From: Henricia sp. BOLD:AAB3569
Taxonomy: Eukaryota > Echinodermata > Asteroidea > Spinulosida > Echinasteridae
Direction of reading: 5' to 3'
Assembly (NCBI GenBank): GCA_037783545.1
Contig: JBBELK010000624.1
Location: forward strand, 310,001-374,000
Length of the DNA: 64,000 bases
Position numbers and translations under genes: made by a program. Positions 21,101-64,000 of the stretch are shown one piece after another (positions within the stretch are counted from its first letter, which is position 1; each line of letters opens with the position of its first letter). The notes under the pieces are model-generated. The model searched no databases and had not been told where the DNA came from. It was given only the letters and a program-made list of their open reading frames with translations.

Positions 21101-24100
21101 CTGTACATTTTCCTCAGAAAATCAACACCAAACATGTTTCTGCAGAAACTTGTCCCAAACACTATCTCTTAAAGCTGCACAACAGTGGTTTAAAGGCCAG
21201 TCCCACCCAGACATGACAAAATACCACAAACCTACAATGTACTTCAATATACCATCTTTATAGTCACTTTGCACACCCATTCAACCTATTTACAGTCCAA
21301 AACAGCTCCTTACCCAGCCGCAAAACTTCCAAAAGGCTGTAAAACGCACGCATTTCGCGAAAGCTAAAGCGCCCTCTATTGACTATTACTTTACATCGCT
21401 TGAAGTTATGCTCATTTCAAACTACTGTTTGATGCCGAACTGTGACGGGTCTTTTGTAGTGTTCTTTGACTATTTTAAAAGATTCAACACCTCAGGTTTT
21501 TCGTTAATATGAAATATTTTCCACGTAAATTCTTACATAAACGACAAATCCCAACGTAGCTCGGTTTTTTAAATCTTCTCGATAAGATATTACTGCTTTG
21601 TTTGCCACTTTGCTGATAATTATTTAAAACAATCATTATACCAATGGAAAGAGCATTTCAAGGACTAAAATACAATGCATAGAACTTAAAAAACATAAAA
21701 ATTATATATTAGAAAATATGAGATTAAGTACAGTTGACTGGATGTTTTAATTACTCAGCTTATAATTATTCTCATACAGTTACATTAAAGGGGCTATGTC
21801 ACGGTTTGCGCATGCGCCAAATCCTGTCATATTTTGACATACGTGCCGGCTCAGATGAATGTAGTGCAATTTCGTTACACAATGCCATTGGTGCGTGTGC
21901 TATAGTTGTGTACATCATGTACCTAGCACGTGCCGCATGGGCAGTGTGTTCGTTCATGAGTGTTTACAATACGCAGAATTCAACTACATTGTGCATCGTG
22001 TGCATTGCTGTATCCAACCATGTCATTCATATCATTCGATGCCGTTTCTGTCGTGTTTTGTCGAGTTTTTTGATGGGATGAAAAAACTCTCTTTTTAACG
22101 ACGGCCGCACACACGGTGATGACGATGTTTGGCGGCTTAAAAATACGGCCAACAGTGCGATTCCAAGTAAAAAGTAATGCATCAGGACATCCTGGACATT
22201 GACAAGTACACCACTGCCAAAATTACTAAAGAATTATAAGGGATGGCAAAGATTGGATATATGCAAAACCTGGCGACAAAACTTTAAAAAGTTAGCTACA
22301 CTTTTTCAAGTTTAGCTGCGCATGTGCAAACCATGACATAGCCCCTTTAAGACTTAAAATTTGCAATTTCTTGGGGCACAAAACAAGTTTTTTGCCAAAA
22401 AACAACTGATACAACTGACCTGTTATATAAGTCAAAAAATTGCAAAACAAAATCGGCCGAAATGTCTGAGTCTTAAACCACTGTGCACAATATATAATAT
22501 ATAATATCATTTGCAATGACCCAAAATGTTAGTCAACGATTTGAAACCATTTGAAAACATTTCACAAAGATTGAATTGGTAGCAACTATCCAATGAAAAT
22601 AATGTTTCCTCCCGAGATGATACATTTTTACCAGAAAATAATCCATGGAAATTTATTTAGATCGTTTGCAAATGATTTACCTGGAAGCCCGCCCTCATAA
22701 GATTGAATTTACTTACATACATACATTGGCTCGCATCTGGGCGGTCCAAAATGGGCGCTATGTAGCCTACAGGCTGCATCATTTAGGCTTTGCACACTTT
22801 CCGTAGGTAAGGTAGGTTACACTGTACTTGTGCACCCGACTGGTGGCACAAACAGAGCCACAGAGTGCATATGTACGTACGCGACCGATTGATGACGAAG
22901 AGACAAATTTAGAATAAGTCACAAACAATAATTTTGAAACTCCTCGTCAAGACCGGCAAAATGCTCATGGATTTCCATGTTTTTGGAAAACGTGGTACAT
23001 TTGACTTAGCTGACATGTCTTCAGAAAGGTTTTTTGATGTCCTTCTTTTGATTTATAGTGGTTTCGTTCTCAGAATCACTCAAAAACAGATCATCTATAG
23101 GGCCTTTAAAGGCAGTACACATGATTGGTAAACTCAAAGAATCAGAAATGTTCACTGATTTACACATAACTTACACGATATATAAACATGATGACGGCAG
23201 AAAACTTCCCCTGAAATTGTTTTGTCTGAAGTGCTATAGTCTTTGAGAAATGAGCAAAACAATTATATTTCATCTCGCAAGACGTAAATTCAATTCGCCC
23301 CCAAACCACTTCGCCCAAGTGCCATTCCCCCCCCCCCCCTCAAACACTACCTCGCCCAAATGCTACTTTGCCCAAAAACCACTTATGCACATACCGTGGT
23401 TCAGGGCGAAGTGGTTTTGGGGCGAAATTACTGCAAACCGTTTTTTGACTGTTTTCTTAAAAGTTAGACGAAGTACAGAGCTGGTTTTTGCTCAGGTTGG
23501 TTTTTATCATGAATATCTTCAATCACACAGAGGGATAAAACGATTTGTAACAGTTTACCAATCGTGTATACTATCTTTAAGTATATATCTTTATGTGTAT
23601 ACATGTACTATCTTTAGCACAACCACGCCTCCTCCACCCAAGCCAAGCCGCTTCAGTGCACACATTGTACACTGAAACCCCTCAACCAGTACTTATAGCC
23701 CTGCATCATCACGAGTCCGGCATTACTCCTGAAGACGAACAGAGCACGCTGTTCGAAACGTTGAGTTCACACTCACCGGTTCTTTTCAGAACCACACATA
23801 TATATACAAATGAGATTCACATGGTGCTACCGTAAAATCATACACACGTTGATTTCCACCATGCATAGCCTTAAGTTTTACCTACTATCTTTATGTTAGG
23901 GCCAGCCAGATTGAATTCATCTTTACTCTGGTATCCTGCGCAGATACTCAATAAATTGCCTCTAATTTTGTCACAGGTTATACCGGTAATGGACATGAGT
24001 GCAGTGATGTTAACGAGTGCTTGGTCAATAACGGAGGCTGTTCCTTGTCACCATTGGTACAGTGCATCAATACACGTGGATCTAGACAGTGCAGTGTTTG

Positions 24101-27100
24101 CCCTGCTGGTATGTTCACAGAATGTTGCCTTGTTTTAAATCAAACAATCCATTAACTTCTCTACAGTGTTTCAGTTACATGCACATTGTGTGATGGTTCT
24201 CTACACTAGCAAAACAACAAGGCATAGAAAGTCAAAGGCCTTGTGGGATGTTGTGGGAGTCTTGAGAGTGTGCGGGTGAGGGGATAGCTTCCCTTGCACT
24301 GGGAAAAACATTTTTTGGCAAATGTGTATAAAAAGCACCATGTTGCGTTGTCCATAAATTGGAAGCTTTTTGGACCATGTAAATGGGTTGCACGTCTTCC
24401 AACGATTTTGACCTACTGACCAAAGGCTATACATGTAGCTGGCAATAATAAACAGGGGCAGCAAAACGAATGCAAGTTGAACAAAAATGTGGAGAACCCT
24501 GCAATTTAATTTCATTTAATGCAAATTGATGCTATTTTTGTTGATGCATGGGATGAAATTGTTTAAAGATGGTTCATGTGTGTTATTAGGAGACTGGAAT
24601 GTTAAAATGAGTCGGAAGAATTTTGATGTTAAAACTTTGTCTCTTGCCAGGCTATGTTGGTGATGGTGTTACTTGTCTCTTTGTTGGGATCTGTCGCCAG
24701 AACAATGGAGGATGCTCACCGTTTGCAACATGTGTTGAAAACACAGGTACAGCAGGAGATTTCACTCAAGCCTCTAGTATTTTTTCTTTCCTTTTTCTTT
24801 TTCTTTTTTTGTTTGCTTCTATTTTGTTTCGTTTTGTTTATTTTTATTTTTATTTTTTTTGAAAAAAAAGTGCCTAATAACTACATTTGCTTAACGATAC
24901 TTCAAGTGAAAGATTTTAAAACCACTTGTTTTCAAGAGAAACGGCCCATTTACACTAGATTTGTTTGTCTTTGCCAAATTGAACGCTGCACTTTCCAAAA
25001 AGGCGAGTTGAATCCATGTAGGAGCTAAGTGTAAACACAAAAGATGGATTAAAAAGGCGGATCAGTCCCGGGTCTGTTCTGTAGTCGCCTTTTCAAGTCA
25101 CCTTTTGAGTAGTACCCATGGCACTAGACCTTGTTGGAAGCCTAAAGAAACCTGTAAAAAGGTGATCAAGAAATTCTCAGGTCAAGAGGTGGAACTAAGG
25201 AAAACCCCTACATGTGTAGAGATGCCCCCAGAATGATTGAAATCCAATACACATCCTGGTTTGGACGGTATTCGAACCAGGGCCACGGAGAGGGAAGGCA
25301 AGCGATCTGCCGCCATGCCAACCTGATTTCCCATTAAAGAAACATTACATGATTGGAAAACTTGAAATCACCAACAACAGCATTATAATGAATACTGTTG
25401 ATAAACTGCCTTTTAGAACTATCAGCCACATATATAGATGCAGTAATAATTCCCTAAGTATACCACTGTGCCTCATATGTACATGTAGCTCAGCTGGTAG
25501 AGCATCTGCCCAGTGTGTCACTACCCGGTAGTCTGGAGTTCAAATTCAAAGTCTGGTGTTAATCGTTAATCTAGTTGTGTGTCTTGGATTCTATTTGGGC
25601 GCAAGCCTTGGGTTTATTAAACAATAATTCCAATAAGGCCCATATGATTTTCCTCTCATCCTAACTTTGGTTGTTTCATTTCAATGGTGAATAGGCTAGG
25701 CATTTTCCAATTTATTCCCATGGAGTGGGAGACTGCACTAGCAGTTTTGGTTATGCAGTATACATGTATGTCTCTGGGGCTGGAGACTTGATAACTAGTT
25801 TTTATTTCAAGTCGTAAATCAATCTTATTTTCCAAGTCCAGTCACAAGTCATTTTCTCCAGAGTCAAGTCACAGGTAAAAAACCAAAAACTGACTTGACC
25901 CCAAGCCAGCAAGATAATAGTGACTAGCTCTGCCATGGTCTAATTCGTGGGCAAATTCTGTATAACTGCCCCCAAGACACTCGCACTCAGAACTGCATAT
26001 GTAGTTCCCCGTCGTGAAGTGGTTGAGTTGTTAAAGTCATCTTTTCTTATCCCAACATAGGTGCACCCAATGGACGTATCTGCACCTGCAATCCCGGCTA
26101 CACTGGCAATGGCGAGGGTGGTCAAGGTTGTACCGCCACTACGGGTGCTACATGTCAGGACAACCCATGCATCAATGGGCGTTGTGAGACCCTTGGTACC
26201 ACTATTCGATGTGTGTGTGAACCCGGTTGGCAGGGTGATCGTTGTGGTGAAGACATTGATGAATGTGCAACCTCACCGTGTGAGAATGGTGGCACGTGCC
26301 ATAACATTATCAATGGGTTTGATTGTGACTGTGTCAGTGGCTACAGCGGCGAGAGGTGCCAAGATGAGCTACAAAGTTAGTCTGTGTTTCCTTTTTTTTT
26401 CATGAGTGGCAATTGTGCATATAATTTTTTTGTTGTTCACTGTTATACATTTGATACAATTGTTACTTACCGTGGCCGAGTGGTTTGGGTCATTGACTCG
26501 CAATCATGGGTGAAAACTTGTGGTTGCAGGTTCGAACCTCCCCTGGCTGCGGTACCTGTGCCCTTGAGCAAGGCACTCGACCACACTTGCTCCATCCTTT
26601 GGAAGGGATGTAAAGCCGCTGGTCCAGTGTGTTAGGTAACGGTAACGCACTTTAAAGATCCCAGAGCATTCTTTCGTGAAGAGCATGGGGATTCCCGGTG
26701 TCTCTGGCCATTTCTAATTCTTCATGGGTTTCCTCACGCTTGCGAGTGACAGTGCAATGAGCACTATTGAGGAATCCTTGGTATGAATACCAGAAATAAA
26801 TAATAAATAATAATAAAGCTTGTAGGAAATACATGTACCGCATGTTTCTAATAACATACAACATACAGAGCCCCACCTGGATGTGCATCCAAACTGGACG
26901 CACCAAAACATCCGTACACACACTACACATTTTGCGCAAGGCTTTCGAATAATGTTGACCAGTCAGAAAAATACTGTACAATGTATATTCTAAAGAGATG
27001 ACATCTTGAGCTAAAGGAGCTAAATAGGAAGGTTTTCAATCCATCTGTAGCGACAATGTTTAATTACTTATTTGTACTTATTTAATTACTTGATCTTCTT

Positions 27101-42100: not shown

Positions 42101-45100
42101 AGCTTCGTAGTCGAAAACCCACAGTACGAATTGAGCTCAGGAAAATGCTTAGTAACATTATGCATAGAAATGTGGACAAATGTCCACGTTAATAGTTGTT
42201 AGCGTGTCCTGGGGAACGCACTTTGTGATGTTTAGAGCCATGATGTTTAGGGCCAATAGACCTATGACATAATGACGTCACGCAACGTTTACCGCGGTGC
42301 ATTATGGGTGAAAAGTGGGACGAAATCTCTGCATCTCTAGTTTGCGTGCATTGTATGCATAGCGCCAAGCGTATTATAGTCTATTTACGATTTGACCTAG
42401 AACTAATTGCAATAGAAATCATTCTAACATGAATCTAGGCCGCAACATTCAAATAAACAACATATTAAAAATCCAATTGTTTCTTTTGAGTGGAAAGGTG
42501 TTTTTGAAGCAGTTTTTGAAGACAAACATTAAGAATTAAAATTTAGTCTGGTAACGTTCCTCAGTCTGTATGTTTCCTAATAGTGGATGCGTAGTAATAC
42601 GACCACTTGCGAGCAGACGACGACGTCTCAGAAACTAGTCTGGTAACGTACTCCAACCTACATGTTTCGCGATGGTAGGTGCATGGTAATCACGACCACT
42701 TGCGAGCAGACGGCAGTGTCCAAATCAGGTGCTCGCTTAAGAGCGTTTTTCTTAAGCGGCCTAGATTCATGTTAGAATGATTTATATTGCAATTAGTTCT
42801 AGGTCAAATCGTAAATTGACTAGACTGTAATACGCTAGGTGCTATGCATACAACGCACGCAAACTAGAGATGCAGAGATTTCGTCCCACTTTTCACCCAT
42901 AATGCACCGCGGTAAACATTGCCTGACGTCATTACGTTTCAGGTCTATTACCATTGCAACCCACGTCACACTTCGGCTGTCTTTACAGGAGCTGGAGTGG
43001 GTCAGACTCCTGCTTTTCCTTTGTATGCTGGATCTGCCAATGATATTACATCTGTGTAACGGATGAATGCAAATTGGGATGCTGTAAATAAACTTTAGAA
43101 TTCTAGAAATACATGAATTATTCAAAACAGAACAATTTGTTCATCTGGTTGCTTTTGGGTTATTCCTAAATAAAACTAGAGGCCAAAATGTTTGATGTCT
43201 CAGTCACATGTGAGACCTTGTGCTTCAACCCCCAGGTGGCTGTGGTGGCCAGTTCACAGATGACGTTGGTATCCTCGCATCACCACCCCACCCCCAAGGC
43301 TACCCTCATGGCGCGCACTGCGTATATGTCGTCACCGTGACTGATGGTTACGTCATCCGACTGACGTTCAATTCGTTTAGTCTAGAGGGTGTCAGAAATT
43401 GCATCTTTGATTACGTTCAAATCTACGATAACTCCACGGATGCTGTGTCACCTGACATGGGAAGGTTGGTAGCAGAGATTTTTTAGAAACATTTGTGATA
43501 AAACTTACAATAAGTAGCAGAAAATGATGCAAAAGATTGTAATAATATACAAATAATGAACGGTTATGAGTGCATTAGTACAAATAATTTCATGAGGCAA
43601 AGCCATGTGAAATAGAACATAAAATCTGTCAATAAATGAAATTATTCTTTCTATTGAACAAATTTGGAACATTCCTCATTTGTTTTAAATCATGTTGGCA
43701 CCCGATTTCTGATTAATCAGAGCTCTCCCCATTTCATAAAAATCATTGACCTAGCAAACCAAACCGCATGCTAACCTACTAATTTGTTTTGCTAACGTGA
43801 CACCATCTTTTTTCATCGCCACACTCGGCAAAATTTGAGACACATATTCCAACAGATACACAACTTTCAGCTGTAGACAAGGTTTTTCTGTGGTAGTGAC
43901 AGTCATTTCAAAATGGATACATTACTTATGGTGCCCTCACACCATAGCGATCACCAGTTGCGTATGGTTGCGAATAAAAAATAGTGGTCATAAGTTCCGA
44001 ACGCAACTCACACGCAACTAATAGGTTTTATAAGTTTGAAGTACGCAACAACCACGCAGGTGATCGCAGACACACGCAGAGTAAGTTCAGAAATTTTGAA
44101 CATGTTCAGTAATTCTCTGCGAATGCCTGCGATCAATTTATACGCAACAGGTACGCTACGCACGCAACACGATCGCAACTCATAAGTTATGAATGCAGGT
44201 GATCGCAGGTCCAAATTTGAGGTATCTGGCCAGGTTTTGGTAGCGTACATGTTGCGAATGTGTTGCGATCATGTAGCGTACCCCAACCTATTGTGCGTAT
44301 TCCCAGCGTATCCCCAACCTATGCCCTGCATATGCAACCTATTAGTTGCGTGTGAGTTGCGTACTACATGCGTGTTGAGAAATGGTATAAATAGTGTGCC
44401 TTTTCTAGATCGGAGTCAGTTGTTGGTGGACCTCCGAGGTAGCTTTCCCCATGTTGACTCTTCGATGACCAAATCAGTACTGAAAAAAATACTGAATTGG
44501 CTCCGCTTTTATAGCTTTTTATCACGTGACCGATATTCGCAACTACCACGCAAGGCCAACGCAACTCGTAAGTTCTGCACGCAACTCGCACGCAGGTGAT
44601 TGCAGGTATTGGGGGATCATAAGTTCAGTTCGCAACCCACACGCAACCCATAGGTTGAATAGGTTAGAAATTGACAAAATTGTTGATTTGGGTTGCGTTT
44701 GGTGCGTATAAAAATTTGTTTACACGCAACTCATAGGTTTCAGCATACGCTATGGTGTGAGTGCACCATTATGAGGGTATTTGAAATTGTTAACGTTGAC
44801 ATAAGCAAAGCAAACGATGAACGTGTTCGCACGAAACAGATGACAGCATTGTGCGCGCACTCTTTTCGCGTGCTTAGAACAAGCTTTATGAAATACGCCC
44901 TTGCTTGAGCGAATTTTCGGGCTGTGCTTAATCCAAAATGTTTGATTAAGTGTCACATGTTCTATAAAATTGGCCCTGTTTAGGTCACTGGTAACATTCC
45001 AATACTACTGTAACATTGCAGTACCTCTGTTGGGTGTGGCGCCGTTACAATACTACAATTGTTTTCTTTGTGATGGCTAGCCTGCACCTGGACTTACTTA

Positions 45101-48100
45101 CTTTACTTTAGTGGAGACAGCGGCCATGGGCTCGATGGGATGCCTTTCTGATCGTCAGGCCGTGGGTCTGGAGGGTTACTTTCACTTCGTCTGTCCACAG
45201 CCTTCTGGGTCTTCCTCTTGCCCAGACTCCAGAGTGTCGCATGTTGTAGGCTTGGGATACCGGCTGGTTTGGGCCCATCTTGACAAAGTGGCCAAACCAC
45301 TCAATTTGTTGACGTTGGATGTGTTTCTGGACTGGGGTTGTTCCCACCATCTCCCCAATGACCTCGTTTTTTAACCATGTCTCTCCTGGTTTTAATTGCA
45401 GCCTTCTGGAGGCATCTCATTTCACATGTGGTTTTTCTCTCCAGGGCTTTAGTAAGAGTCTATGACCCCGTTCTCACTAGAGAAATCGCTTTGTTCGACG
45501 ATGATTTGACGAAGAGATTTCCTGATGTGAACGCACACCTCTTCATTCGATAATGATTAGAATCGCTTTATTCGATGAAGAAAATAGCTTCATTCGACGA
45601 AGATATCGCTTTATTCGATGAAGCAAATTTGTAATGTGAATGTCTCCCTTCGTTCGACAAAGTGATTTAGCGGGCCTGTTGTACAAGCGCGTTGTGCGTT
45701 GAGCGCCTAGCAAGAGTTGTTTTTGACGCACCTCTGGAAAACCACACAGCGCGTCGAGATGCTTGAAACTCGGCGCTTGATGCGCGACGCACATGTACGA
45801 CCTCCCACGGCTTTATTCGATCTTCGTTAGCAGTCGCTCTTCGTTCGATCTTTGTTATTAAAGTGATATATAAATGCACGCTTCATTAACTAATGATGAT
45901 TACAGTAAAATCTCGTCGAAACCGGATAACTCGAAACTCCGTTTACCTCGAAGTAATCCTCATTCCCGACATGAGAATAGGCTTTTGTGCACACGAATAC
46001 CTTCGTAACTCGAAATTCCTGTGCTAGTTGCTCCGTTTACCTCGAATTGTTTTTCGGCAAATCTAAAAAGAAACCGCAACCGAAGGGATCACAAAGTGTG
46101 AAAATCTTTTCAAGAGTCTTATCTGTCGATATCATCCGTCTTTTCATCAAAAGATGCAGCGTGATGCATAATGTCCCCTGATACAATAGGGCCTAATCAA
46201 TCCATAACCGTAACAAATCTGCCTTCCTGGAACGCCTGAATGATACCGCAAGGCCTCGTCCTGCATTGAAGATCGCGTTGTGCTCGCACATGCTCACTGC
46301 CATTGTTAAACAGCTAATATCCCCCCGTCCACATTTTTAAAGTTTTCCTGTTTATCATGGAGCTGTATGTGTCTACAACACCATCACAACTTGTTTTCTA
46401 AAAAACAAATGTAGATTTTTTGTTTAAAACGCAAAGCAGTTCCGACCCTCTTCACCCGAAATTCTGAAACGCTCGAGGGCACTTGGTTTGTTTATCAACA
46501 GGGTTTTGACGTCATCCTGAGAAACATACAAAACGGCCTGTGCAGTATTGAATGGAAAATACACGAAGTGAATGTTTATCATGCCTGTTTTGTCCTTGTA
46601 ATTCAATATACAAACGTGAAAAACACTTCATGTAATATGACAACAATCTACTATTACCTGTTTTGTGAAAAAACGATGAAATTGTGGTTCACAATGAAGC
46701 TCTTTTGAAGTAAATACTGGTGCATTGCGACGGGTGGTTTTGTCCATGTCTGTGTACAGCATGGAACGGTGCTTGCGGGCCGTAGTTCCCACGTGATTGA
46801 ACATCGGCCGCTACAAGTTAGAATGAGCGACTCATTTTTTTTCTCTCTCTTGGTAATAGAAAAGAAAATCTTTCTGCTCTTTTTTTTTCATAGTGTCTGG
46901 TAAAACATACAACCACGCAGCTACTGGGCATATCTCTGGCTTTTTGGACCAACAAAATTCTTCAAAAAATACCATCTAACAGAGATGGTTTTCCAAGTTT
47001 TTTGCGTGTAAATGTATAGAGCTAACAACCGGGTTGACTTCTCTTTCTCAGGATTGCGTCACGGGGTCACGCGCATATCATGAATCGCGAAAATCAAATT
47101 TTCGAAAAGCGCACTTTTACTTGCAGTTTATCCACTTAAAACCGACAATTAAAAAAGAAAAAAAATCCACGTCGGCAAAATAATGTGAAATATCTATCAA
47201 CCAGGAAGGTCAAAGTAACCAAAAATAACAATTAAAAAAAAAAAAAAATACACGTCGGCAAGAAATCCACGTTTGTACTATCGAAAAAAGCCTAACTGCT
47301 AGATTTTCCTTCAAGGGGATTCTAGCTCTTTAAGCATACCCACCCGGAACCATGTGGTCCGTAGCCATACCATGCACTGCACTGTGGACAATGGCAAGTG
47401 CACCCTCTATAGGTACAAGATAGCACACGCAATCACACAGCTGGCCATGCGTGCAGCACTGCAAACTGCCCACAAAATACGGACGATGGGATGAAAAAAA
47501 CACCATAAAATGAAGACACAAAACATGAAATAGACCTTCAAGTAACAACAACAAATTTTGCCAAAACGATGTTTTGGAGCCGGGAAAAGTGCTTACAAAA
47601 TGGGCTAAATACCGAGTCCACAACATACATATTCGTGCGTTGAGCGGAGCGAATCGGGACTTCCGTTTAACTCAAACTCCGGATACCTCAAAGTTTTTGT
47701 CCATTCCCTTGAGTTTCGACTTAACGAGATTTTACTGTAATTAATCTTCGTCGAACGAAGCGATTTCTCTAGTCTGGCATTGGTACATGTACATGTACGT
47801 CAGGGTCAGGGTACTGAAATGTGCATTTTAGATTATTGTATACTGGCAGGCTTGGAATTCCTGGGTTGTGACTGGAGAGCCAGCAAGGTCCTATATAAGG
47901 AACCTGTGGGCAAGCCTTGTTGGTTCTGTATTTGTCCTCACGCTTCGGTTCCTTCCCAAGAACCGGTTTTAAATATTCCAGACACCTTTCCAGTCAAGCC
48001 CTCTACTTCAGTTCGTGACCTTGGCGCATACTTTGATAGTCACCTCACTATGCGTCGTCATGTGAATGCAGTCTGCAGCAAAGCTTCTTTGGCACTCAGG

Positions 48101-51100
48101 AGGATTGGAAGCATCCGTCACTATCTAGACAACCACACAACAGAGGTGCTCGTCCATGCCTTCGTGACTTCTGTACTTGACAACTGCAATAGTCTTCTGC
48201 TAGGTTCCCCGGATAAGGACATTGCCAAGCTCCAACGGGTACAGAATTCAGCTACACGACTGGTGTCGAGGGCCAAGAAGAGGAATCACATAACACCCGT
48301 CCTAAAGAGCCTACACTGGTTACCAGTTCAATCTAGAATTCATTACAAAGTTATGCTCATCATCTTCAAATCCCTCCACGGTCTGTGCCCAGATTTCATC
48401 TCCCAACTTGTTGTCCCTTACACGCCATCAAGATCCCTCAGGTCATCTACATAGCAGCTCCTCACCGTCAATTCAGGCAGGACCAGAACCTATGGAGACA
48501 AGGCATTTTCAATTGGAGTCCCACAGCTCTGGAACTCTCTAACACAATCTTTCCGATCCGAAACCGAACTACAACTTTTTAAGAAACATCTAAAGACCCA
48601 CTTGTTTAAAATGGCTTTTCAGTGACTGTTATCAACCAACTGACACACAGCTAACAGGCTTGCGCCTATTATCTTTTTGTACATTGTTGGTGTTGGCACT
48701 GTCTGTTTCGTATAATTATCTTACCAACTCGGTTACACTAGATTCAAAACCATTTATAGAATTAGTCAGGTCTTGAGTGCTGTCACAGTAACTTGCCATG
48801 CACATCATTCATGACTGCAGGCACATTCGTCGGTGACACCACGAACTGACACAGTGGCGCTTGAGTGCATACCTACATGTAGGCTGAAAAATGACATCAG
48901 CATGTAATATGTGTTTTCACAAACCTAATGCACAAGTACTTCATCTGTAATCAGAATGTTTTCATTTCCACAAACTAACTAATTAAAATGTTTAGATTAA
49001 AGTTTCACTATATTTCACTAGTATAATAGTTATTCACGTCAAGCATTTTAAATTAAAAAACAAAAATTCACCGCATATCAGTTCGTGGAAATCTCTTCCA
49101 GTGTACGAAGTGCGTGTGCAAACATGGGTGTCAGTTCGTAAAAATTTTGCGGCCCCCACTGTTTTTTATGAAGTGTACTCAAACTGCACTTGTGTGTTAC
49201 TTTGCGATGTCACCAACGATTTGTTTACCGATACTCACAGAAATTTTGTACCCATTTCTATAATAGATACTGTGGAAGTGATCCTCCTCCGATACTGACA
49301 ACATCAGGCAACGTCATGACCGTCATCTTCCATACAGATGCCACCGTTGCTCGGGATGGCTTTGCTGCTTCTTATGTCGCACTTGATGCTACAACTGGTC
49401 AGTGCTTGGGCCTTTTACAAAAATAACTTAGTATTAGTCTAACATAATTTTGTTATTGTATAGAATTCATGTAATAAGTAGAGCCCAGATAACTAGAGCT
49501 TGTGAAATTTACTGCTTAAAGGTAGAACACATGATTGGTAAACCGTTAGAGTTTCATCTCCCTGTGTGATTGAAAATATGCATGATTAAAACCAACCTGA
49601 GTAAAAGTCAGCTCCGTACTTCGTCTAATTTCTGAGAAAACAGTAAAAAACTATGTCATTACCACTTCGCCCTAGAACCACTTCGCCCTGAACCACAGCC
49701 TGCACACGAAATGGTGTTTGGTCGGAGTGGTCCAGGGCGAATTGGTTTTCGGGCGAAGTGAAATTAATTGTGTAAATCTGTGAAAATTTCTGATTTTGGA
49801 GATACGAATCATGTGTTCTACCTTTATTCCTGTGCTGCACTGACATATAGTTTCGACTATTTTCTTGTTTAACTGTTCAAACTCTACAAGTGCTCCTTTT
49901 AGACAGAGCTAAACAAAAAACATGGCGAGTGCACCTTTAAGCCCTGATGAAAACTTGAACCAGATTTTCCAGGAGAAACCCAGACTGTCTGGCAGGCTCC
50001 CATGTGTTTGTGTACAAAACAAATGCCATTCATTCCAGGGGCTTTCACTGCAGAAAAATTATCGTAGCTGTCACTGTTCAAGGTGAAAGACCTCTGGTAA
50101 AAGACGCATTGGTAAAATATTGTGCACAATTCCCATGTACCGTAGTGTTGAAAATAGTACCTTGGTGCAATGATGTATGGATCTTTGCGCATGGCAGCGC
50201 AGTGTTTATATAAGAAATTACTTTAAAGTGCCAAAAGTCTTCTTTCTCAAGATTCTCTGTGATAAATTGATTGTTTATTAAAAAGACACAGATCTTACAA
50301 AGACTTTTGACATTCTGTAGATTATATGCAAATGCTACAGTACAAAGCCCCAATCACTGATGTTTTTTTCTTGTATTGTGTTTTTTCTTATTCACTGGAA
50401 TTCAACATTTTTAGTTTAATCAAAATTTGAAAATTTCCTTTGTAATGAAGTTAACATTGAAATATTCACATAACTTCATTATGCAAAATTCCCACTCTCA
50501 GATTGACGGCCTTGATTTTTCAATCAAAAAGTGGAAAAACATTTTTTTCTAGGAGGTTTTGATATTCTCAGCGCTTTGTTTCCCTCTTGTGTAGTGTGTG
50601 GTGGCGAATTATCAACAACAACTGGAGTTATCACATCACCAAACTACCCTGACAACTATCCTCATAATCGCCAGTGCGTCTGGGTTATTACGGTGCCAAC
50701 GGGCCAACAAATTAGTGTCAACTTCACTGATTTTGCAATGGAGCTGCATCCTAACTGTGGCTATGACTATGTAGAACTCAGGTTAGAAAAATGTGTCAAT
50801 TTTTCCATCCTAGCTGTTTTTCTCATGGAAAATTTTATCGTAAAAACGTGTAGTCAACCCGAGAGTGAGACATTTCAGAACACATCTTTATGCATTCGTG
50901 CGTAACGAAGCTGTTTCATTCGTGCGTATTGAAGCTGTTTCATTCCTGCGTAACGAAGCTGTTTCATTCCTGCGTAACGAAGCCGTTTTATTCGTGCGTA
51001 ACGAAGCTGTTTCATTCGTGCGTAACGAAGCTGTTTCATTCGTGCGTAACGAAGCTGTTTCATTCCTGCGTAACGAAGCCGTTTCATTCATGCGTAACGA

Positions 51101-54100
51101 AGCTGTTTCATTCCTGCGTAACGAAGCTGTTTCATTCCTGCGTAATGAAGCTGTTTCATTCATGCGTAACGAAGCTGTTTCATTAATGTGTAACGAAGCT
51201 GTTTCATTCATGCGTAACGAAGCTGTTTCATTAATGTGTAATGAAGCTGTTTCATTCCTGCGTAACGAAGCTGTTTCATTCCTGCGTAACGAAGCTGTTT
51301 CATTCATGCGTAACGAAGCTGTTTCATTCATGCGTAACGAAGCTGTTTCATTCATGCGTAACGAAGCTGTTTCATTCATGCGTAACGAAGCTGTTTCATT
51401 CATGCGTAACAAAGCTGTTTCATTCATGCGTAACGAAGCTGTTTTATTCATGCGTAACGAAGCTGTTTCATTCATGCGTAACGAAGCCGTTTCATTCCTG
51501 CGTAATGAAGCTGTTTCATTCATGCGTAACGAAGCTGTTTCATTCATGCGTAACGAAGCTGTTTCATTAATGTGTAACGAAGCTGTTTCATTAATGTGTA
51601 ACGAAGCTGTTTCATTCATGCGTAACGAAGCTGTTTCATTCATGCGTAACGAAGCTGTTTCATTCCTGCGTAACGAAGCTGTTTCATTAATGCGTAACGA
51701 AGCTGTTTTATTAATGTGTAACGAAGCTGTTTCATTCATGCGTAACGAAGCTGTTTCATTAATGTGTAATGAAGCTGTTTCATTAATGTGTAACGAAGCT
51801 GTTTCATTAATGCGTAACGAAGCTGTTTCATTCATGCGTAACGAAGCTGTTTCATTCCTGCGTAACGAAGCTGTTTCATTCATGCGTAACGAAGCTGTTT
51901 CATTCATGCGTAACGAAGCTGTTTCATTCATGCGTAACGAAGCCGTTTCATTCCTGCGTAATGAAGCTGTTTCATTCATGCGTAACGAAGCTGTTTCATT
52001 CATGCGTAACGAAGCTGTTTCATTAATGTGTAACGAAGCTGTTTCATTAATGTGTAACAAAGCTGTTTCATTCATGCGTAACGAAGCTGTTTCATTCATG
52101 CGTAACGAAGCTGTTTCATTCCTGCGTAACGAAGCTGTTTCATTAATGCGTAACGAAGCTGTTTTATTAATGTGTAACGAAGCTGTTTCATTCATGCGTA
52201 ACGAAGCTGTTTCATTAATGTGTAATGAAGCTGTTTCATTAATGTGTAACGAAGCTGTTTCATTAATGCGTAACGAAGCTGTTTCATTCATGCATAACGA
52301 AGCTGTTTCATTCCTGCGTAACGAAGCTGTTTCATTCATGCGTAACGAAGCTGTTTCATTCCTGCGTAACGAAGCTGTTTCATTCATGCGTAATGAAGCT
52401 GTTTCATTCATGCGTAACGAAGCTGTTTCATTAATGTGTAACGAAGCTGTTTCATTAATGTGTAACGAAGCTGTTTCATTAATGTGTAATGAAGCTGTTT
52501 CATTAATGTGTAACGAAGCTGTTTCATTCATGCGTAACGAAGCTGTTTCATTAATGTGTAACGAAGCTGTTTCATTCATGCGTAACGAAGCTGTTTCATT
52601 CATGCGTAACGAAGCTGTTTCATTAATGCGTAACAAAGCTGTTTTATTAATGTGTAACGAAGCTGTTTCATTCGTGCGTAACGAAGCTGTTTCATTCCTA
52701 CGTAACGAAGCTGTTTCATTCATGCGTAACGAAGCTGTTTCATTCCTGCGTAACGAAGCCGTTTCATTTCTGCGTAATGAAGCTGTTTCATTCATGCGTA
52801 ACGAAGCTGTTTCATTAATGTGTAACGAAGCTGTTTCATTAATGTGTAACGAAGCTGTTTCATTAATGCGTAACGAAGCTGTTTCATTCATGCGTAACGA
52901 AGCTGTTTCATTCATGCGTAACGAAGCTGTTTCATTCATGCGTAACGAAGCTGTTACCTGAATTGGGGCGATTATCTCATTCAAGGGTTTATTCCTCTGT
53001 ATGGCCTGTTAAGCTCATGTGATAGCCAATTCCAGCCAGTGAGGAACAACTGCAATACCACCAGTTGGCTTCATAGCTCAATTGGAGGGGCGTCTGCACG
53101 TTAAGAAGAAGGTCTGCAGTTCAAATCCCGGTGGAGCCAAATTGTTGTTCACTTTTGTCCACGTTTGTATCGTAAAGAAATTTTCACATTTTAATTAAAC
53201 TTGTTTCTGAAGAAAATTCATGTTTCTTTCGTTCCACTGTATAATTACGGGGCAATGTGAAAGGGCCAATGACAACACAAGTTGCTTTGTTCTCAGGAAT
53301 GGTGGCTATGCGACGTCTCCTCTGATTGGAACATTTTGTGGACACACGATCAACCCAACCATGTACACCTCACACAGCAACAAGATCTACATCAAGTTTG
53401 AATCGGACTTCTCTAACTCCGATCGGGGGTTTTCTCTCACGTACGATGGAACTGCCACAGGTATCCCTCAATATTATTAATGTGTGTTACAAAACATAAG
53501 AATTGCCCGGGATGGCAAAACACTTAGAGAATCAGCCACTAAGGGTGTGTAGACTCTTCTCAACTCGCCATCTTGCCTTCTGGTTGCCGTTCTGGTCGCT
53601 GATTCATCTGACATTTAAACCTCAAGTCACGAGTCTTTTGGTTTCTGTTTACTCCAGGTTGTGGTGGGACTCTGAATACACCAACCGGGGGCCTGGTGTC
53701 TCCCAACTACCCCTACCCTTACGGCCACAATGCCCAGTGTTTTTGGCTCATCACCACCAGCCAAGGCAGCACTCTGTACCTGACATTTGCTGACCTGGAC
53801 CTGGAGACTCACGGCACGTGCGCCTTGGACTATGTTAAGGTATGGTATACAAATAGTATACAAATATTGACTGCAATGAGGGGCATGGTTAAGATTATAG
53901 GCCCAAGGTGATCTCGAAGCCATGACTGTGCCCCGTCATGGCTTCGAGATCACCGAGGGCCTATAATCTTAACCATGACCCGAATAAACAGCAGTCGATA
54001 GTTGTTTTATATACCGAATGTGTAAATTTTTGTCATCTGGTTGGTTAAAAGTAACGAGTCACAGTCACCACGGTGGAGTTTCGATTTCGGAAGCTGGTCT

Positions 54101-60100: not shown

Positions 60101-63100
60101 GTGGCTTTCCCCGTGTTGCGTGTGCATGCTTGCTGCCTCGCCGTGCGCACCTAGTGCCCTGTCAATAGAAAAGTAAGCCAGGCACGCGCGATAAAGCAGA
60201 AAGTATGCGTGCGCGCGCGCGCGTGCGGGGAAGTTTCCGCAGAGGCTTTTGGGATGATTTGTAATATGTTTACGAGATGGGGGTCACACACGTTTTTTCC
60301 CAATTTATTGTAATCCAATTACAATCGGATTACAATCGAATGATTGTCATCGACCGATTATGACACAATTACAATAAATTTGGGGTCACACGGACAAAAT
60401 ATCATAATCGTACTGTAGTAATACTACAATAAATTGGGATGTCGTAATTCGTCTAACCCCGGCCTTGGTTTCAGCCCAGATAATCTAATGGCTACAGACA
60501 CGATTGAAATTTCCTTGTTTTTTTTTTTTTAACAGGTCCGTGATGGTCAAGAAGACAACTCGCCATTAATCGGTGACCAGCTGTGTGGTGATACATTCCA
60601 GCCAGAGGGTGTTTTCTTCACCAGTACTAGCCAATACATGCTCATCAAGTTCCACTCTGACTCGACACTTGCCTCTGCTGGGTTTCAGGCATCTTATTCC
60701 ATTAATGGTCAGTGCTAAGTAGAGGGCATTTCACACTACTAAGCTCTCACCCGGGTATTTTTTACTTTTAAGGCCCAGTGTATCATTGCAAGGAAAACCT
60801 TATTCAAAGTGTTGAAAGCAATGGCAACAAACACCACATGCATTTATTTATGTTCAAGATGGTACTTTTGGTAAGAAATTAACAATTGAAGGTGGTTTGA
60901 AAACTTTTTTTTACCATTCACTTGACACAAAAACATGCATAGATTTGAAATGTTTTCTGAAACATTGGTGCATCTCTGCAGCTGACATTTCTGCATGCTA
61001 ATGTACCAACATTCTTCTTTTAAGGCAATGTCCATATTCCAGGAATCTGCAAAATGTTCCATATTGCAAATGATATACTCCGCCTTTAATCGAGACAATC
61101 AGGGTATGTTCAGACGGAGGGCTACTTTTTTTAGCCCCAATCCAATTAACAGACTCAGCGGGAGTTCGCTGGAGCTAAAGTGAGTTAGTCCAAAATGTCC
61201 TCCCATTCAAACGGTGATGATAACTCCGGAGCTACAGTTAGCTCCGGAGCTAAAATGTGGTCAAATTTTATAGCATATTAACATTGTCCAGATGCCACAG
61301 AGCGAGGTCAGTTGCGTTCAGTCAGTAAATAATGGTGGAGCTAAGTCATAAAAGAAACCCCGCTGTGCTGAAAGTTCACACAAATTTGTGGGGCTAAGTT
61401 TGGGGAGGGCTAGCCCCCGAGCTAACCCCAGAGGTGGAGCTTATTGCGTTCTAACAACAGGAGTTTGGGATGGAGCTAGCTAGCTCCGGAGCTAGCTCCA
61501 GAGATAGCCCCTCGTCTGAACGTCCTCTCAGTTACCAGGTTGTATCTTGCAATTGATGGTTTAGCCCAATTAATTGGGTAATCTCTCTCTAAGTGCTATG
61601 TTAAAAAAGCCTTGCTTTCACCACCACACACCCCCGCTCCCCACCTCCCAAAAAAAACATGTTGGTTCTCCTGCAGTAGAAATTATGTTTTACCTCACTG
61701 TTTCAGAAAGTAATCTCTGTGTACAAACAAAGTAAAAGCCCATTAAAAGTCCAATGCAACATTTGGAATGACCCAACATTTTACTTAACGAGTGTGCATC
61801 ATCACGGTAACTTAAGCCACGCACACCCTGCACGTAAAGGTATTGGAACCATTTGGAACCAGAACTTTCAAATTAGAAAACGAGTGCTGAGAATCATTGG
61901 TGTGTGCACTCACTCATGATCCGGAGAAAAAACCTGAATCATGATTTTTTTGTTAAATTTCAATGCAGAATAAACATCTTTTCCCACCCAGATGTTCCTT
62001 GCATCTCCCATTAAACAGCTAGAATCCCCCCATCCACATTTTTTAGTTTTCCTGTTTATCATGGAGGTTTATGTTTCTACAACGCGATTACAATGTGTTT
62101 TCTGCCAAAAACGGACAGTCTTTTGTTTAAAACGCAATTCAGTTCCGACCCTCTTCACTTGAAATTCTGAAACGCTCGAGGTCACTTGGTTTGTTTACAA
62201 ACAGGGGCGTGACGTCATCCTGAGGACTCAAAACGGCCTGTGTAGTATTGAATGGAAAACATACGAAGTGTATGTTCATCATGCCTGTTTCGTCCTTGTA
62301 ATTCAAATTACAAACGTGAAAAAATACTTTCTGTACTATGACAACAATTTGTTATCTTTTTGTGAAAAAAAATTAAATTGTGGCTCACAATGATGCTCTT
62401 TTAAAGTAAATTTCAGTGAATCAAGGCTGTTGGTTTTGACACGAATGGCCATCTTAAAATTGAAAAAAAATATTAATTGGGTATGAATTTAGGAGTTGAA
62501 TTCCACATCTTGTTATGAGCTGTAAACCACGAAACAGTGAGAGTTTGATGGAAAAAAAAGACGACTGAGACAAAGTTATGATTTTTACTGAAGCAAAACA
62601 CATGAGTGCCACAGCGGCAGTTGGCAAATGGTCGAGCGTTGTACTTGGTCAACTTCAAGTTCAACCGTTGGAAAAAAAATCAAAATATCTATTTTGAGTT
62701 AAAACCACTTTCGAACAACAGACCAGCTGCAACAGATTTCAAAAATACCTTTGTTGCAAAAATTCATCAAGCGGTTGCTGTTTTATGCTTGTTAAATTGC
62801 ATCCAATTCACGTGTGGAATCGTCAATGAAAATGAATAGACAGCTAGTTTAAAAATTGTGATGTGATGCATAGCCCCTATACGCGCGCACACACGGCAGC
62901 CCAGCCGTACACATAACCCAACTCACGGCAGCCTATACCCGGTACAAGTTCGCCTATAAGTACACCTTCGCGCGACTAATTTTTCTCATTCTTCGAAATA
63001 ATAAAGAACATTTTCCGCTCTTTTTTTTTCATAGTGTCTGGTAAAACATACAACCACTGAACATATCTACTGGGCATATCTCTGGCTTTTTGGACCAAAA

Positions 63101-63656: not shown

Positions 63657-63820
63657 GTACGTACATTATTTTACAATTTAACGATAGCATGGGAGAATGC
63701 CAAGATTTTCCCACATTTTCTGTTTTGTAAGAATACTTTGCACAGTTTGAACTTTGTCGGAGTGAAATTTTTGGATTTGTGGTGAGGGGGGGCGGGACTG
63801 GGAGGAGTCTACCACTCTAC

Positions 63821-63876
63821 CTCATAGCTCAGCTGGTGGACCATCTGCCTCATAGCTCAGCTGGTGGACCATCTGG
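63821..63876. repeat. 28-bp direct duplication with tRNA A-box-like sequence
   Basis: CTCATAGCTCAGCTGGTGGA with CCATCTG occurs twice in direct tandem. Each holds TAGCTCAGCTGG, an A-box-like word, but no B box follows. Confidence 0.8.
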
Positions 63877-64000
63877 GTCTTTCTATAAATTAGGGGTCCA
63901 AAAGTGTGACATTTGGTGTCCCCTGTTACACCTGATATGTGTTATTTTTTGTACAAAAATCATTAAAATGGCTTTTAAACCATTTGTATGAATTGTACTT
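63875..64000. mobile_element. MITE, TATATGGGTCTTTCTATAAA family, cut by window end
   Basis: GGGTCTTTCTATAAATTAGG then GGTCCAAAAGTGTGACATTT and GGTGTCCCC, matching 55284-55490 in inverse order of the interior. The right end is outside the window. Confidence 0.75.

Follow-up and report, generated by a model that had tools for sequence, protein, structure and literature searches.

How did a 2.07-kb block of one short sequence, repeated head to tail, come to lie within a predicted intron of a sea-star gene, and does it serve that gene in any way? The block is an array of a 24-bp unit in a 64,000-nucleotide stretch of the genome of Henricia sp. BOLD:AAB3569 (contig JBBELK010000624.1, positions 310,001 to 374,000, forward strand; hereafter the window), where it separates the two halves of a CUB domain of a cubilin-like gene. 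An initial annotation, made from the letters alone, had drawn attention to the array as the product of recent amplification or ongoing homogenization and had speculated on a regulatory or RNA role. Our analysis makes it highly probable that the array is a single-locus intronic minisatellite, or variable number of tandem repeats (VNTR), in this cubilin-like gene, most likely one without function.

The array is real and its register is exact. Tandem Repeats Finder (TRF) reports a period of 24, 86.0 copies, 93% matches and 0% indels, and a unit-by-unit reading gives 86 units without an indel, comprising 21 distinct sequences. Both results confirm the array of 86 indel-free copies described in the initial annotation, with the correction that TRF places its start at 50893 and not at 50888. 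Thirteen of the 24 columns of the unit are invariant, and the variants fall mostly at columns 5, 6, 9 and 14. When up to three mismatches were allowed, a 23-base pattern of the unit matched 86 times in the window and not once in 100 dinucleotide shuffles. With 86 head-to-tail copies of 24 bp, the array lies within the range of minisatellites, whose units measure from seven to several hundred bp.

The array occupies a single locus that is assembled twice. In the 740.7-Mb assembly, a 34-base unit pattern with up to three mismatches, to which more divergent relatives would be invisible, found 173 matches and its reversed control none; by local counting, 85 of these matches lie in the window array and 88 in a second copy on another contig, C162. 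A DNA search with a 313-base array query agreed, finding only the window locus and C162:2207273-2209412, and at the stringency searched the array is thus confined to one locus. The flank of exon plus intron likewise occurs at exactly two places in the assembly. C162 is collinear with the window from 31594 to 64000 in pieces of more than 300 bp at 92-99% identity, and the EGF region at 25950 also has its C162 match where collinearity would put it, at 97%; the alignment is interrupted by gaps that do not align, and it contains one piece in inverted orientation and a few near 85% that lie off the diagonal. Collinearity and the two-copy flanks indicate that the window copy and the C162 copy are most likely the two haplotypes of one individual.

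The initial annotation had allowed for two ways in which the array could prove trivial, namely, that it was absent and owed to assembly error or that it was an ordinary satellite present at thousands of loci. Repeats are error-prone in assemblies, and this genome does hold long satellite arrays: in a small sample of seven 10-kb stretches, drawn largely from short contigs, six consisted mostly or wholly of satellite units of 273-297 bp and one carried a 21-bp × 18 array. Nevertheless, the array stands in two separate contigs with the same unit order and the same higher-order pattern, its unit pattern was found nowhere else in the assembly at up to 3 mismatches in 34, and two places, with 2.07 kb in the window, are neither the many loci nor the very long arrays of a satellite. 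A false expansion or a genome-wide satellite is therefore highly improbable. Nor did the unit match phages, and the exact 21-base unit string was absent from viral contigs and prokaryote genome contigs. The array-free pieces of the intron, checked for an origin in a mobile element, had a single further match in the window, of 28 bp.

The two copies differ in length by whole units. The window copy has 86 units and the C162 copy 89; their alignment places three extra single units in C162, shows no part-unit indel, and leaves 75 of the 86 aligned units identical. If the copies are alleles, copy number differs between homologous chromosomes (n = 2 copies). Substitutions are also more frequent in the array (13 in 2064 bp, 0.63%) than in the gap-free 5' flank (11 in 8137 bp, 0.14%; Fisher P = 2.4e-4), where no indel separates the copies; the first 660 bp 3' of the array are identical between them. 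These flanks form, with the array, a low-divergence block from 42756 to 53615, possibly reflecting recent shared descent, conversion or a phase switch in the assembly. Divergence in the other aligned blocks ranges from 0.34% (60179-64000, 13 mismatches in 3832 columns) to 3.16%.

Several points weigh against taking these differences as the turnover of a variable array. The divergence of the array is high only relative to its own low-divergence block. Of the 13 substitutions, 11 are CpG-type transitions, and at bases outside CpG the divergence of the array is no greater than that of the flank (2 versus 9 sites, P = 1). Only 2 of the 13 fall at columns 1, 5 and 6, for which exchange alone would predict a share of about 0.54 (P = 0.005). 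Where the three extra units are placed within runs of like units is to some extent a matter of choice, single-base differences in repeats can be introduced or removed by polishing, and the comparison rests on two copies from one assembly.

The pattern of substitutions raises the possibility, which we regard as rather unlikely, that methylated CpGs were deaminated in an intronic block dense in CpG and that the point changes in the array arose in this way and not from exchange among units. The observed/expected CpG ratio is 1.83 in the array and 0.72 in the rest of the window, and it does not exceed 1.18 in 116 overlapping 2063-bp windows outside the array. CpG bases differ between the copies more often in the array (11 of 318) than in the 5' flank (2 of 598; P = 2.9e-4), while non-CpG bases behave alike. 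The distribution of variants among units tells against this account. In the window copy, T at column 9 occurs only together with A at column 5 (20 of 26 A5 units, 0 of 60 others), and the same linkage holds in C162 (16 of 26 A5 units, 0 of 63 others). The units without A5 carry the same CpG and show no sign of recurrent random deamination at column 9; since random deamination would not give such linkage, the linked variants appear to have been copied between units. Deamination also leaves the unit indels and an internal 19-unit duplication unexplained. We therefore rejected pure CpG deamination as a full account and kept it for the point changes only, where it fits most of the substitutions. 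Exchange and CpG deamination may both be acting on the array, or polishing errors may be adding noise.

The array also records an older event that is readable from its unit order. Autocorrelation of the window copy peaks at a lag of 19 units with a z of 4.6, compared with a maximum of 4.46 over all lags in 1000 unit shuffles, and corresponds to a block of units that recurs directly after itself (Table 1). The C162 copy has its peak at lag 20, with a z of 4.2 that exceeds the 99% level (3.79) and lies below the largest shuffle value (5.09); C162 has an extra unit inside the second block of the duplication. In the window copy, units 31-39 are the same as units 50-58, and the matching C162 units show three differences, which hints at a later conversion in the window copy. 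The 19-unit duplication and the bulk of the amplification are common to both copies and are therefore older than their split. Accordingly, the claim of recent amplification or ongoing homogenization holds in part. Whole-unit turnover is supported by the three single-unit indels and by the excess of array substitutions over the 5' flank, whereas the bulk of the array had already formed before the copies parted, and most aligned units have remained identical.

The host gene and the domain that the array interrupts were identified correctly in the initial annotation, as judged by Pfam matches to the two CUB halves and by a local CUB profile. The profile recognizes 17 half-domains between 28419 and 63680, all on the + strand, which form eight pairs and one unpaired half; the array lies between the halves of the sixth domain recognized in the window. 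In cubilin, EGF repeats precede a long run of CUB domains, and the predicted order of EGF exons and then CUB exons identifies the gene, at the level of sequence, as cubilin-like. Among seven exon-like open reading frames (ORFs) chosen from 24 in the upstream region, four reached the cut-off of an EGF model, two matched EGF models at scores below the cut-off and one had no match. The best relative in the PDB of the CUB domain that holds the array is cubilin (3kq4_B), and a protein search with the joined domain returned two relatives, both without a name. In a scan of three other ORFs, Pfam recognized a single CUB half, and a 237-residue ORF at 47741-48451 had no Pfam match.

The array makes up about four fifths of the predicted intron. 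Its location is ordinary because the split falls at a similar point in seven of the eight paired CUB domains: the second half begins at profile position 65-68 in these seven, and only the first pair in the window is split earlier, near position 34-45. The distance between paired halves ranges from 636 to 5749 bp and is 2517 bp for the array's pair; three pairs are farther apart, and the array intron is thus not the longest.

Removal of the predicted intron rejoins the CUB domain in frame, and this result bears directly on the idea that the array is a repetitive coding exon with an 8-residue repeat. Several features give that idea an initial appeal. The unit length of 24 is a multiple of 3, and the array lies in open frames of 705 codons (+ strand, stop to stop 50844-52961) and 706 codons (- strand, stop to stop 50888-53008). 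Over the entire + frame, two unrelated Pfam models, TM1506 and XylR_N, also exceed their cut-offs. However, a 24-bp unit that is open in one frame automatically yields a long open frame when it is repeated in register, and both strands have one. The unit variants are mostly residue-changing in the + frame, and no single stretch passes for either Pfam model, so we read those matches as scores summed over repeats. When the upstream CUB exon is read on into the intron, it meets a stop in unit 1, while skipping the intron restores the domain. On these grounds we rejected a protein-coding tandem repeat, which we consider extremely improbable.

Table 1. Features of the array and its surroundings (window coordinates)
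Feature	Position	Strand	Description	Basis
24-bp minisatellite	50893..52955	.	86 units in exact register, consensus CATTCATGCGTAACGAAGCTGTTT	TRF, unit table
Internal higher-order duplication	51445..52356	.	Block of units 24-42 (51445-51900) repeated as units 43-61 (51901-52356); lag of 19 units = 456 bp	Lag-19 autocorrelation, side-by-side unit comparison
Intron holding the array	50782..53296	+	GT-AG, 2515 bp; splicing predicted	Splice-join translation
Exon, first half of sixth recognized CUB domain	50600..50781	+	Profile positions 2-61; start may be somewhat upstream	Pfam, local CUB profile
Exon, second half of sixth recognized CUB domain	53297..53450	+	Profile positions 64-110; 3' end approximate	Pfam, local CUB profile
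tRNA-like element, 3' part of intron	53067..53139	+	33.9 bits, cut-off 29	Rfam RF00005

Other features of the gene region stand apart from the array. The tRNA-like element between the array and the 3' splice site is probably a tRNA-derived repeat, and ARAGORN called no gene there. An Rfam match to the histone 3' untranslated region stem-loop lies among the EGF exons at 23773-23817 (35.9 bits, cut-off 34) and is probably a chance match or a relic. Positions 25950-26025 hold a dispersed repeat of about 75 bp, with at least 38 further copies genome-wide among the 40 of 781 candidates that were scored, at 91-95% identity over matches of 73-81 bp.

Does the array act on its gene? The initial annotation held that every unit contains GTTACGCAT, which it likened to a bZIP site, and that some variants contain a TEAD-like CATTCC. 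On a regulatory reading, such repeated sites would act as an intronic enhancer or influence splicing in a dose set by copy number. The string ATGCGTAAC is indeed concentrated in the array, with 41 exact occurrences there and a single one elsewhere in the window, and there are human precedents in the intronic VNTRs of ABCA7 (PMC5954066) and TERT (VNTR6-1; PMC11830802), which are reported to be tied to splicing. The details do not support such a function. The GTTACGCAT nonamer is exact in only 41 of the 86 units, contrary to its supposed presence in each, and its nine columns have a mean of 6.2 variants each, compared with 2.7 for the other fifteen. Matches with 0 or 1 mismatch to the PAR-bZIP consensus RTTAYGTAAY number 0 in the array, and a C/EBP-type consensus is matched 6 times with one mismatch and never exactly. 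The array contains 15 occurrences of CATTCCTG and 16 of CATTCC. With fewer than half of the units carrying the nonamer, and with the nonamer placed on columns of higher variability, a regulatory element is a quite improbable explanation.

The suggested RNA role fared no better. Against dinucleotide shuffles, a 240-base segment folds with a z of -1.95 on the + strand (4 of 200 shuffles as good) and +1.59 on the - strand. Permuting the columns of these units yields arrays that are a fairer control for a tandem repeat, and in six tests against them 63 to 123 of 200 folded as well; the folding is as expected for such a repeat.

The array could also be imagined as a CpG-dense, methylation-dependent element whose copy number and CpG content vary between haplotypes and tune the splicing or expression of cubilin. 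We consider this very unlikely. CpG density is the single property that sets the array apart, but its 149 CpGs in 2.06 kb follow from a unit that carries two, and this density is by itself no evidence of function.

As a single-locus intronic minisatellite, the array most probably arose in the following way. A 24-bp stretch was duplicated in place, and the array then lengthened as whole units were added and as a block of 19 units was duplicated at least once. It probably still gains and loses single units and swaps unit variants through slipped pairing or through unequal exchange or conversion. The array is most likely transcribed within the intron and removed by splicing, as a passenger without a job. 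Its value lies in offering a cleanly resolved case of minisatellite change in an echinoderm, as the gain or loss of single units and the duplication of a 19-unit block can be read directly from two copies that share their unit order. The array could serve as a polymorphic marker, and it would matter more if it were true that copy number or CpG methylation affects the splicing of cubilin.

The array is not alone in its neighborhood. A second large minisatellite, with a 29-bp unit, starts 120 bp past the end of the window (C624:374120-375690) and has 54 copies there and 50 on C162. It resembles the 24-bp array in being a large minisatellite present on the same two contigs with a copy number that differs between them. 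It differs in that its unit resembles part of a tRNA-like element, by our reading, and in that TRF reports 2-3% indels. A 2.3-copy 28-bp repeat of similar sequence to the 29-bp unit is found at 63811-63875 in the window. The standing of the 24-bp array as the least ordinary structure in the window is thus weakened by this second array just beyond the window's end, and the genome evidently holds large tandem arrays with some frequency. The mitochondrial COI gene of the assembly reads by the echinoderm code, and the six best of at least 120 relatives, at 90 to 93% identity, are sea stars (Meridiastra gunnii, Zoroaster ophiactis, Ctenodiscus crispatus, Ceramaster, Parvulastra vivipara and Freyastera benthophila); a sea urchin follows at 89% in this database clustered at 90%, which makes a sea star the very probable source. 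In a separate observation, the COI gene occurs three times on contig C955 (at 7592, 23813 and 40034, a spacing of 16,221 bp) and once on C2104; the C955 repeats look like a head-to-tail concatemer.

Four unit strings did not occur in the text of the papers searched, and none of the papers listed on echinoderm intronic minisatellites and starfish intronic VNTRs concerned this array. Its nearest parallels are intronic minisatellite VNTRs of human genes. The VNTR in intron 4 of eNOS, with a 27-bp unit, has reportedly been studied for disease association. Like the human intronic VNTRs of eNOS, TERT and ABCA7, the sea-star array is an intronic tandem array with alleles (here, the two assembled copies) of different length, and the units of TERT (38 bp) and eNOS are similar in size to its 24 bp; the host, a sea star and not a human, is different. 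The reports on ABCA7 (PMC5954066) and on VNTR6-1 in TERT intron 6 (PMC11830802) tie the arrays to splicing, and further intronic VNTRs are reviewed in PMC8239992; the sea-star array resembles these in its length difference, and a functional role for it would be speculative. The G-quadruplex mechanism proposed for TERT is inapplicable to the sea-star array because its unit has no runs of G. As described in PMC8096271, minisatellites have patterns of seven to several hundred bp and include introns among their sites, and slippage, unequal crossover and gene conversion have been proposed for changes in their copy number. The array agrees with that class in period, in whole-unit differences and in its single locus, and its 2 kb is probably longer than that short-read survey could genotype. 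The array belongs to a known class, that of minisatellites of such unit size, which occur in introns among other places.

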